54,001 nt of DNA, from NCBI GenBank assembly GCA_017475765.1, contig JAFVEY010000019.1, positions 1 through 54,001 on the forward strand. The letters are read 5' to 3'. Numbering within the stretch: position 1 is the stretch's first letter; every line of letters begins with the position of its first letter. The notes beneath the pieces were generated by a model. That model was not told the DNA's origin. It did not search any database and worked only from the letters and a program-made list of their open reading frames with translations. A program made the translations under genes and the position numbers. Origin of the DNA: Clostridia bacterium. Its GTDB lineage: Bacteria; Bacillota; Clostridia; Oscillospirales; Acutalibacteraceae. Positions 10,630-13,005 of the stretch are shown here, piece after piece.

Positions 10630-11019
10630 TCAGAAATCAAATCTTTTTCGCAGCAGACTGCACACACCCGATATCGGAACAGTCAAAGCCGCCCAGAGTA
10701 TACTGTAAATCAGGCAGATCTGACCCTTGAAATTAAAAGGCAGACCGGAATAGTCCCACACATTCATTTTAGCTTTGAGATTGACAGCGCACCCCACCAC
10801 AAATTCGACGCTTGTGATCACGCTGCTGCCGATCATACATTTTTTCCACATGGCAATTCCGACAAGACGTTTGAAAATTCTGTAAAGAACGACAAAGCAG
10901 AATCCGCCTGTCAGAACCATTGTCCAATGCGTATATTTCCGCCAGATGATTTCGATCAGCCCGTAGGAGATTCCTCCGATGGAAAACAATGCCAAATTGC
11001 AGTTTAATTTTCTTTTCAA
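10630..11019 (-). CDS. Small membrane protein, putative ABC-transporter type IV (PF06541-like)
   Basis: 129 aa, about four membrane segments. The conserved pattern is IGGISYGLIEIIWRKYTHWTM, SVEFVVGCAVNL, MNVWDYSGLPFNFKGQICL, as in the PF06541/CmpB-like family common in Clostridia. The biochemical role of this family is not established. The start is TTG with GAGGTGG five bases upstream; no ATG start fits. Confidence 0.75.
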   Translation of the reverse strand: MKRKLNCNLALFSIGGISYGLIEIIWRKYTHWTMVLTGGFCFVVLYRIFKRLVGIAMWKKCMIGSSVITSVEFVVGCAVNLKAKMNVWDYSGLPFNFKGQICLIYSILWAALTVPISGVCSLLRKRFDF

Positions 11020-11178
11020 ACGACCACCTCTTTTTTACATTTCGGATATAGTATCTGCATTTTTCTGCATATCTACTCTGTCAAAAAGAGAAAAAGAAAA
11101 ATCCGTATTTTACAAATCCATTTTTGCTTGATTTGAATATGTTTTTTGAGGTTATGTGTAGCTTTTTTTAACAGATGA

Positions 11179-11187
11179 TGGTATAAT
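11179..11187 (+). promoter_or_regulatory. Extended -10 promoter of the rpn gene
   Basis: TGGTATAAT: TG one base upstream of a consensus TATAAT (11182-11187). No good -35 is visible, as is usual for extended -10 promoters. It lies 28 bases before the start codon. Confidence 0.6.
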
Positions 11188-11214
11188 ATAAATAAAGATT
11201 CGGAGGCGGCAAAG

Positions 11215-12201
11215 ATGAACAGAGATGAAAAAATTGTAAAGCTGAAGCTGGATATCATTTTCAAAAGGATATTCGGCAATGAGAATAATACGGATATTAT
11301 TGCGGCATTTATTTCGGATCTGCTGGAGATACCACGCAGCAGCATCAAGAAAATCTATATCAATAATGTTGAATTGGCACCTGAATATTTTGATCAGAAA
11401 TTCAGCAGACTTGATTTAAGGCTGGATGTTGACGGCAGGATTGTCAACATAGAAATGCAGGTCAACAGAGAGCCGGATTTTAACGACCGTACTTTATTTT
11501 ACTGGTCAAAAATATACAGTGAACAGCTCAAAACCGGAGAAGAATACGGTGAATTGAATCAGACAATCTGTATCAATATCATTAACTTCAATCAGTTTGA
11601 CTGTCCGGATTATCATTCTCATTTCAAGGTGCTTGAAAAAGAGCGCCATGAGGTGCTTTCGGAAAAATTCGCCATACATTTTTTTGAACTCAAAAAGATC
11701 AAAGATTCCCAAAAACACAAACCGATGGAAGACTGGCTGAACCTTATCAACGCAGAAACGGAGGGTGATCTTATGGATATACAAAGCACAACCAAAAGCC
11801 CGGAGGTACAGAAAACAATTGTAATGCTGAGAGAACTCAGCGCAGACGAAAAGCTCCGTCAGGAGGTTTATTATCGTGAGAAGCGCCTGCACGATGAAGC
11901 GTCAGCATTAAAAGGCGCAATGCGTGAGGGCATAGCCATCGGCGAGGAAAGAGGCATAGCCATCGGTCAGGAAAGAGGCATAGCCATCGGCGAGGAAAGA
12001 GGCATAGCCATCGGTCAGGAAAGAGGCATAGCGATCGGCGAGGAGAGAGGCATAGCCATTGGTCAGGAGAGAGGCATTGATATAGGTATGGCCAAGATAT
12101 TACTGAAACTGTACAATTCAGGTAATACAGTGGAGCAGCTTTCAGGTATGTTTGATATGCCGGAAGAAGAAGTGAAAAGGCTTTTGGCTATTAAGTCCTG
12201 A
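11215..12201 (+). CDS. Rpn-family recombination-promoting nuclease / PD-(D/E)XK transposase-like protein
   Basis: 328 aa. N-terminal LKLDIIFKRIFGNENNTDII then the PD-(D/E)XK core RLDLRLDVDGRIVNIEMQV, with Asp67, Glu80 and Gln82 as candidate catalytic residues, all present. The middle (FNDRTLFYWSKIYSEQLKTG, CINIINFNQFDCPDYHSHF) is typical of the Rpn/PDDEXK_2 family. From residue 239 there are six GIAIG(E/Q)ER octapeptides followed by a degenerate seventh, then a C-terminal helical segment ending in EEVKRLLAIKS. CGGAGGCGG precedes the ATG. Met187 has its own strong ribosome-binding site. E. coli Rpn proteins are DNA endonucleases, linked to phage defence, and held in check by their own short internally started C-terminal product; the same design is inferred here. 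Confidence 0.85.
   Translation: MNRDEKIVKLKLDIIFKRIFGNENNTDIIAAFISDLLEIPRSSIKKIYINNVELAPEYFDQKFSRLDLRLDVDGRIVNIEMQVNREPDFNDRTLFYWSKIYSEQLKTGEEYGELNQTICINIINFNQFDCPDYHSHFKVLEKERHEVLSEKFAIHFFELKKIKDSQKHKPMEDWLNLINAETEGDLMDIQSTTKSPEVQKTIVMLRELSADEKLRQEVYYREKRLHDEASALKGAMREGIAIGEERGIAIGQERGIAIGEERGIAIGQERGIAIGEERGIAIGQERGIDIGMAKILLKLYNSGNTVEQLSGMFDMPEEEVKRLLAIKS
11760..11775 (+). promoter_or_regulatory. Internal ribosome-binding site and start codon within rpn
   Basis: GGAGG at 11760-11764, eight-base spacing, in-frame ATG at 11773-11775 (Met187). It would give a 142-residue product made of the post-nuclease region, repeats and C-terminal helices. This is better than most true start sites in the window. 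Expression is inferred. Confidence 0.6.
11929..12072 (+). repeat. 24-base coding repeats, six units (first copy)
   Basis: Six head-to-tail 24-base units encode GIAIG(E/Q)ER with Glu and Gln versions alternating, followed by a degenerate unit encoding GIDIGMAK at 12073. Confidence 0.95.
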
Positions 12202-12233
12202 ACTCTATGAATACAAAAATAGAGGGTGATCTT

Positions 12234-12638
12234 ATGGATATACAAAGCACAACCAAAAGCCCGGAGGTACAGAAAACAATTGTAATGCTGAGAGAACTCA
12301 GCGCAGACGAAAAGCTCCATCAGGAGGTTTATTATCGTGAGAAGCGCCTGCACGATGAAGCGTCAGCATTAAAAGGCGCAATGCGTGAGGGCATAGCCAT
12401 CGGCGAGGAAAGAGGCATAGCCATCGGCGAGGAGAGAGGCATAGCCATCGGTCAGGAAAGAGGCATAGCAATCGGCGAGGAAAGAGGCATAGCCATTGGT
12501 CAGGAGAGAGGCATTGATATAGGTATGGCCAAGATATTGCTGAAACTGTACAATTCAGGAAATATAGTGGAGCAGCTTTCAGGTATGTTTGATATGCCGG
12601 AAGAAGAAGTGAAAAGGCTTTTGGCTATTAAGTGCTGA
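12234..12638 (+). CDS. Stand-alone Rpn C-terminal domain protein (duplicated short form)
   Basis: 134 aa if started at the ATG following AGAGGGTGATCTT, equivalent to Met187 of the upstream gene; an ATG nine codons earlier (12207) has no ribosome-binding site. No nuclease residues. The protein is MDIQSTTKSPEVQKTI onward, five GIAIG(E/Q)ER octapeptides and the same C-terminal helix. It differs from the parent by one repeat unit and a few substitutions (for example Arg to His, Thr to Ile, final Ser to Cys). It begins 33 bases after the full-length stop. By analogy with the E. coli short form it could inhibit the nuclease; it could equally be a harmless recombination remnant. Confidence 0.6.
   Translation: MDIQSTTKSPEVQKTIVMLRELSADEKLHQEVYYREKRLHDEASALKGAMREGIAIGEERGIAIGEERGIAIGQERGIAIGEERGIAIGQERGIDIGMAKILLKLYNSGNIVEQLSGMFDMPEEEVKRLLAIKC
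12390..12509 (+). repeat. 24-base coding repeats, five units (second copy)
   Basis: Same octapeptide-coding unit as in the upstream gene, but five copies instead of six, and the first two are both the Glu version, so the loss was of one Gln-type unit. Confidence 0.93.
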
Positions 12639-12669
12639 ACTTTATGAATACAGAAATAGCCCCTGTGTG

Positions 12670-13005
12670 TCATTGTTCAGTCTGAATCACGGTAACTTTT
12701 TTCCCGTTCTTTTTGCAGTAATCAATGACAAATCTGGTTCCTTTGGAGCAGCCGTCCCAGAAGGCTATGACAATATCTGCATATTGGACGATCTGCTCAT
12801 TTCTTCTCAGCGGTGCGGCTCTGCCGTATTTTTGATATTCGGGAAGAAATTCCGTCAGCTTCAGACAGTTCTGACGGGCATAATCTCCGGCGCAGGTGTC
12901 GATTCCTTTTGCCCCGCCGCTGACGATTTCGGTTGTTTCATCAGGCAGATAACTGCCTATATTCTGAATTTTCAGGCTTCTTGAGCCTATTACAGCAACT
13001 TTCAT
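12670..13005 (-). CDS. SLOG/DUF2493 Rossmann-fold protein (YspA-like)
   Basis: 111 aa. N-terminal MKVAVIGSRSLK, then EIVSGGAKGIDTCAGDYARQ and a late YADIVIAFWDGCSKGTRFVI: the nucleotide-binding pattern of the SLOG (DprA/YpsA/LOG) superfamily. Such proteins are thought to bind nucleotides or nucleic acid; several SLOG clades sit in defence and mobile contexts, which fits the neighbouring rpn genes, but no function can be assigned. GGAGG precedes the ATG. Convergent with the rpn pair, 31 bases between stops. Confidence 0.8.
   Translation of the reverse strand: MKVAVIGSRSLKIQNIGSYLPDETTEIVSGGAKGIDTCAGDYARQNCLKLTEFLPEYQKYGRAAPLRRNEQIVQYADIVIAFWDGCSKGTRFVIDYCKKNGKKVTVIQTEQ

Follow-up and report, generated by a model that had tools for sequence, protein, structure and literature searches.

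A predicted Rpn-type nuclease gene with a probable internal start, a free-standing tandem copy of its short form, and the recurrence of such copies in a clade of Clostridia

Free-standing genes for the short form of Rpn nucleases, RpnS, are known downstream of long genes in E. coli, where ypaA is a second RpnE-S and a second RpnC-S has been described (PMC10327210). The product of ypaA was detected when tagged (PMC10327210). In the RpnC system, adding a single repeat to RpnC-S abolishes its action against RpnC-LS, the reverse combination also fails, and rescue is regained when both partners carry the extra repeat (PMC10327210). Among the papers listed by our literature searches, this was the only one to treat stand-alone RpnS genes, which is no proof of absence elsewhere. 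The closest parallel to the locus described here, RpnE of strain K-12, is annotated as inactive. Of the 19 E. coli records viewed in RefSeq, 18 (L176-L188, L190 and L224-L227) annotate the free copy as a pseudogene, although a tagged product is in print (PMC10327210), and the 19th record is without a free copy.

We analyzed a stretch of 54,001 nucleotides from a Clostridia bacterium of the gut (assembly GCA_017475765.1, contig JAFVEY010000019.1, positions 1 to 54,001), hereafter the window. The initial annotation had reported an Rpn nuclease gene with intact nuclease residues, an internal Met187 preceded by GGAGG at eight-base spacing, and a tandem duplication of the segment from this site to the stop that forms an independent 134-residue open reading frame. 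All of these elements were recovered, and the locus is organized as follows.

11182..11187, + strand: TATAAT, a -10-like element 5' of the long gene, read from the sequence
11202..11206, + strand: GGAGG, Shine-Dalgarno of the long gene, read from the sequence
11215..12201, + strand: rpnL-like gene of 328 aa, Rpn-family PD-(D/E)XK nuclease, from the reading frame, family matches and residues
11760..11764, + strand: internal Shine-Dalgarno GGAGG, eight bases 5' of ATG 11773, from the sequence and its conservation at the synonymous level in relatives
11773..12201, + strand: predicted intragenic short product (RpnS-like), 142 aa from Met187, from sequence only
11929..12077, + strand: 24-base repeats coding GIAIGEER/GIAIGQER, 6.2 copies, from repeat analysis
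12202..12222, + strand: post-stop flank carried along in the duplication, with its other copy at about 12639-12659, from direct repeats and alignment
12207..12638, + strand: stand-alone short reading frame from the alternative start ATG 12207, 143 aa, from the list of reading frames
12221..12226, + strand: AGAGGG, weaker Shine-Dalgarno of the stand-alone copy (CGGAGG at the internal site), from the sequence
12234..12638, + strand: stand-alone RpnS-like reading frame of 134 aa, tandem copy of 11773-12201, from the reading frame, repeats and alignment
12390..12514, + strand: 24-base repeats of the stand-alone copy, 5.2 copies, from repeat analysis and alignment

The alternative start at 12207 is in frame, five bases past the stop of the long gene, and no Shine-Dalgarno was seen before it by eye. 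The TATAAT at 11182..11187 is absent from the listing of a promoter scan of 11000-12800, which returned 9 sites against 3.6 expected, each matching at 9 of 12 positions; on the + strand, the site nearest to the internal start on its 5' side lies at 11554-11582. The element ATGGTATAAT is also found 5' of another rpn start in the same genome (C33) and of a solo short form (C74/C61). Adjoining the rpn pair, at 12670-13005 on the - strand, is a small SLOG/DprA-like protein that scores below the Pfam cut-offs. SLOG proteins are often nucleotide-related sensors.

The duplication shows up as two blocks of direct repeats, one with a spacing of 461 bases (94% identity) and one of 437 bases (96%). One residue of the front part and two residues of the tail are different in the stand-alone copy, which also has one 24-base repeat unit fewer (8 residues, or two four-residue units). 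In both copies, the repeats start at residue 53 of the short form, so that 52 residues precede them. The alignment spans both copies from end to end, which excludes a chance resemblance. What was duplicated begins near the internal ribosome site, includes the stop and ends about 20 bases past it. Of the 23 bases at 11737, which lead up to the internal start, 18 are shared with the 23 bases at 12635, which span the second stop; recombination between these segments is a likely origin and may have seeded the duplication.

The long protein matches PF12784 (PDDEXK_2; E 6.7e-53) and TIGR01784 (E 2e-35), both above the curated cut-offs. Residues D13, D67, E80, Q82 and R92 are all present and were matched by eye to D11, D63, E82, Q84 and R94 of RpnA (PMC5350276). 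In 10 aligned rows, D13, E80, Q82 and R92 are invariant and D67 is nearly so. The strict D..E-x-Q pattern occurs in 35 of 39 long genes, and the remaining 4 were assigned by eye. The C-terminal part contains four-residue repeats, two to each 24-base unit, whose number differs between copies. An AlphaFold model of the long protein, built from 10 rows, was poor (mean pLDDT 58.4) and was used for its helix pattern only; it predicts, at low confidence, a C-terminal helix at 196-301 running through the repeats, followed by two short helices. The short-form model (mean pLDDT 67.8) has helices at 10-107, 112-119 and 123-131. At this low confidence, the predicted pattern may resemble the described RpnA-S fold, in which a long helix bearing the repeats is followed by short HTH-type helices, but a Foldseek search with the short-form model gave no match at E <= 0.001 (best E 0.43, with HTH domains among the weak matches), and no RpnA-S structure was among the 50 matches listed. 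A sequence search of the PDB returned no RpnA-S structure and a single match for P0001, at E 0.43, while the short-form profile retrieved designed helical proteins and gamma-delta resolvase as weak matches. The PADLOC library of defence systems gave no match.

The internal start looks conserved among relatives. Met stands at the internal site in 39 of 44 long genes of the clade. A Shine-Dalgarno precedes it in every one of the 39, with a length of four bases or more, and in 36 the length is five or more. Among 272 other internal ATGs, used as a control, the corresponding figures are 28 and 6; this control set includes 5 one-codon-later starts, all of them among the 28. These belong to the 5 of 44 genes that lack the Met, where an ATG lies one codon later with AGGAGG eight bases before it. 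Two of the other 39, L115 and L137, likewise have AGGAGG, which is thus not confined to the shifted genes. The 44-gene start count left out L149 as well as L131, L139, L143 and L153, which were missed by the motif search; L131, L139 and L143 do carry LM at the internal site.

The codons that overlap the ribosome site are nearly fixed. Glu183 is encoded by GAG in 43 of 43 genes, the window included, versus 474 of 1396 other Glu codons, and Thr182 by ACG in 40 of 43 versus 64 of 410 other Thr codons. Close by but outside the ribosome site, Glu181 is always encoded by GAA (43 of 43). Relatedness of the genes inflates the p-values for this codon bias (2e-20 and 2e-25). Even so, it is hard to see what besides a ribosome site would set adjacent codons apart in this way, and because the codons before it are fixed in 43 clade genes, the internal start is very probably real. 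The fixed synonymous codons provide evolutionary evidence that bacteria other than E. coli also maintain such starts for intragenic Rpn antitoxins. One pattern-based scan of IMG/VR contigs found two distant relatives, L174 and L175, on contigs classed as viral; by eye, the L174 protein has its Met at the internal site one codon later.

We then considered how widely free-standing short forms occur. The short-form region was detected in 25 of 64 genomes of the genus (E 1e-4) and in 8 of 300 genomes of a family sample (E 1e-8), the window's own included. The named relatives, across 70 loci, are mostly uncultured Ruminococcus, Clostridia or Oscillospiraceae. The count rests on 44 of the 45 long frames that have a stop, namely those with 90 bases or more of downstream sequence; a same-strand short reading frame directly follows 14 of them. 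The 44 genes lie on 43 loci (L127 has two); close relatives were kept, frame-broken genes were included, and L111 was left out for its short flank. When at least 250 bases downstream were required, 13 of 43 long genes had a same-strand short frame downstream, and none of the 43 had one upstream or on the other strand. At one of the 14 loci, L142, the long gene is broken. Two further loci with downstream short copies, L022 and L029, stand outside the count.

Ten copies that bear repeats or are cut were compared with the long genes, and 9 of them are closest to their own neighbour. The window copy differs from its own long gene by 0.007 per site over 150 nt, the next nearest compared long gene being at 0.253, while the copies of L108, L112 and L116 are distant from theirs (0.43, 0.25 and 0.18 per site). 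Copies closest to their own neighbours either arose separately or were kept alike by conversion, and as judged from these distances the downstream copies apparently have several separate origins and recur in the group. This recurrence of free-standing short forms behind the long genes of the clade is among the things that the present analysis adds. The window's ClpP-like and CmpB-like neighbours recur at L104 and L107, about 3 kb from rpn genes that carry short copies, and also near two rpn genes cut by contig ends (G021:C122 and G024:C168).

Several loci depart from this layout. L043 (G024:C33) carries three tandem short forms with no long gene on the piece, the first being cut at the contig end. 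At L046 (G005:C73), a short reading frame passes from the opening residues of an rpn long gene straight into the internal-start region, which looks like an in-frame deletion of the nuclease part. The window's genome also contains a solo short form (L054:1-320 and the end of L057, on contigs C61 and C74), with the start of C61 overlapping the end of C74 by 141 bases. Here the promoter-like ATGGTATAAT lies closely before the internal site CGGAGGGTGATCTTATGG, an arrangement that counts in favour of the internal start. The long gene's own ribosome site also contains CGGAGG, so a deletion between both sites would give such a solo gene. Its frame ends after 53 codons, before the repeats, and it may therefore be a pseudogene or a capped form of the kind described below. 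Five contigs of the window's genome (C33, C61, C66, C72 and C74) have rpn-related sequence at their ends, so the assembly breaks or lacks further rpn copies.

A second class of short genes lacks the repeats altogether. These capped genes encode 76-81 residues from the first ATG, end approximately where the repeats would begin, and lie directly downstream of rpn long or short genes. They fall into three families.

Capped family 1: L106:3909-4154, L109:3862-4107, L117:4253-4498 and L045:282-527
Capped family 2: L022 and L029
Capped family 3: L127:3913-4149

Family 1 comes entirely from assemblies of the 'Lapin' series, as far as these are named, with copies that are 94-100% identical in 4 of 64 genomes. 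The capped proteins resemble the end of the PDDEXK_2 domain, below the Pfam cut-off. In family 1, AAAGGAGG or AAAAGGAGG precedes the ATG, and in L022 and L029 the ATG overlaps the stop of the long gene. With dN/dS of 0.07-0.23 within family 1 and 0.17 for L022 versus L029, whose capped genes do not match in their last residues, the capped genes look to be under purifying selection where compared. We found no described function for them; our guess is that they inhibit by way of the helix that precedes the repeat position.

Long gene and free copy have repeat regions of unequal length in 9 of 9 clade pairs. In the window the free copy is 8 residues shorter, and in L137 it is 28 residues longer, with front (159/159) and tail (144/144) identical. 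The difference of +3 in L125, not a multiple of four, reflects tails that could not be aligned and an uncertain boundary, and the stand-alone copy of L107 is cut by a contig end. The same pattern is seen in E. coli, where rpnE and ypaA of K-12 differ by one four-residue unit and the lengths differ in 18 of 18 loci with both copies read, from 19 fetched. These loci were hand-picked from 60 of 5371 records, and several share alleles (10 pairs representing 8 distinct ones). The 19th, L189 (NZ_CP159644.1), has a single fused copy, an rpnE with the tail that other strains carry on ypaA; this apparent fusion would have swapped the nuclease tail and the internal antitoxin together.

Shuffling the 8 distinct E. 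coli pairs gave an expectation of 0.26 equal pairs, with 0 seen, which leaves selection for repeat mismatch unsupported. Fast drift of repeat numbers could produce such a mismatch without selection. Repeat lengths were also compared between loci of single assemblies: in Lapin-002 bin115 the free copy of L117 and the long gene of L107 share a repeat-region length of 38, an unweighed coincidence, and in Lapin-026 bin79 the free copy of L104 (18) does not match the long gene of L106 (30).

Around the observed anatomy, the conserved internal start, the recurrence of copies and the mismatch in every measured pair, the reading we prefer, at a probability of roughly 0.7, is an RpnL/RpnS-type toxin-antitoxin unit in which the free copy is an antitoxin of other specificity or a spare C-terminal cassette. 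The unit would probably serve in phage defence. The long gene would encode a DNA nuclease, and the internal ribosome site would direct translation of its 142-residue C-terminal part; by analogy with E. coli, this short part would bind the nuclease via the C-terminal helix and keep it inactive. A tandem duplication that took in everything between the internal ribosome site and a point shortly after the stop would have given rise to the free-standing short gene; the imperfect 23-base homology may have seeded it. Translation of the new gene may start at its own weaker ribosome site or depend on coupling to the stop of the long gene. With two four-residue units fewer, and if the repeat-matching rule of E. 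coli RpnC holds, the free copy is expected to be a poor inhibitor of the adjacent nuclease. Its role would then be that of an antitoxin of another specificity or of a spare cassette.

The initial annotation had combined the nuclease, the internal start and the extra antitoxin-like copy, all well backed by the sequence, with a changed ratio of toxin to inhibitor. The latter is doubtful. More of the same antitoxin would be a natural outcome of a copy that differs by only one residue in the front and two in the tail and lies directly downstream, where it may be coupled. Set against this, the repeat region of the window copy is two four-residue units shorter, a single extra repeat abolished inhibition in E. 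coli RpnC (PMC10327210), and repeat lengths differ in all measured pairs. By this analogy, the free copy may not simply raise the dose of antitoxin, and we regard dosage as an unlikely account. An exchange of tails, in which recombination at the conserved front or ribosome site swaps the nuclease tail together with the internal antitoxin, is possible though we hold it with little conviction. Fronts are 97-100% identical in 7 of 9 pairs, with tails from 39% to 100%; L189 bears the ypaA tail of other strains, a fusion of this kind is also described in PMC10327210, and the long gene of L109 ends with the tail that L117 has on its stand-alone copy. These swaps are inferred by comparison, however, and conversion of fronts with divergence of tails could give the same mosaic. 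Moreover, the fronts of L108 and L112 are more diverged than the tails or equally so, and the window pair has no tail swap.

Among the observations that would refute its reading, the initial annotation had named a second copy that most related strains lack and that has neutral substitution patterns. Most relatives do lack it, with nothing of the kind behind 30 of 44 long genes, yet copies recur, and only downstream, only as the 3' part and mostly with intact frames. On substitutions, nine pairs pooled over front and tail gave Sd of 73.5 over 436 sites and Nd of 105.5 over 1697 (binomial P 5e-10, with sites taken as independent), which shows purifying selection on the copy set as a whole. In seven pairs with nearly identical fronts, the fronts carry 10 synonymous changes and 1 non-synonymous change. 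Outside its repeats, the window pair shows just 2 synonymous and 3 non-synonymous changes, which settles nothing about selection; taken alone, this copy could be a young neutral duplicate. A young, unselected and transient tandem duplication via short homology would fit these 5 changes, the weaker Shine-Dalgarno of the stand-alone copy and the many long genes without one. The pooled selection, the pattern of recurrence, and the AAAGGAGG or stop-overlapping starts in several relatives argue against such a relic, which we consider rather improbable. A collapsed or mis-joined repeat in the draft genome was judged highly improbable and rejected: several rpn pieces of this draft and many relatives' short copies do sit at contig ends, but the two copies differ at several positions and by one 24-base unit, and the same layout is present in other assemblies and in E. 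coli chromosomes.

Returning to the toxin-antitoxin reading, the mismatch in every measured pair raises the question of whether a free copy, such as YpaA, inhibits its neighbour at all; if it does not, such copies have another job. Tentatively, and against the odds as we see them, free-standing RpnS, rather than boosting dosage, may form a class of its own, directed at other RpnL variants or acting as an exchange cassette, with the capped genes an independent antitoxin class built on a conserved pre-repeat helix. If true, repeat length and often the tail would be mismatched to the neighbouring nuclease, the targets would be paralogues or incoming genes, and the capped class, at 76-81 residues, would escape the repeat-matching rule altogether.

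Orphan toxin/immunity modules of CDI and Rhs systems (PMC3150448) offer a more remote point of comparison. These are C-terminal modules that lie beside the main gene and have their own specificity; the likeness is an analogy only, for the way in which the free copy might work, the proteins and their delivery being unrelated to Rpn. The Rpn-L/S system of C. difficile is closer, as a Gram-positive Rpn gene with an internally translated short form, although the main text of PMC10327210 describes no stand-alone copy for it. The arrangement in the window is not new: it is the layout of E. coli rpnE-ypaA, with a nuclease-type gene containing an internal start, followed by a tandem copy of the short form that begins, by eye, at the internal Shine-Dalgarno and differs in repeat length. 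The window protein belongs to PF12784, whereas E. coli RpnE belongs to PF04754. Known RpnS forms start 8-20 residues before the repeats (PMC10327210), a description and not a definition, whereas 52 residues precede them here, making the clade a variant in that respect. Unlike the E. coli pair, the clade also has several short copies in a row at some loci, together with the capped class.
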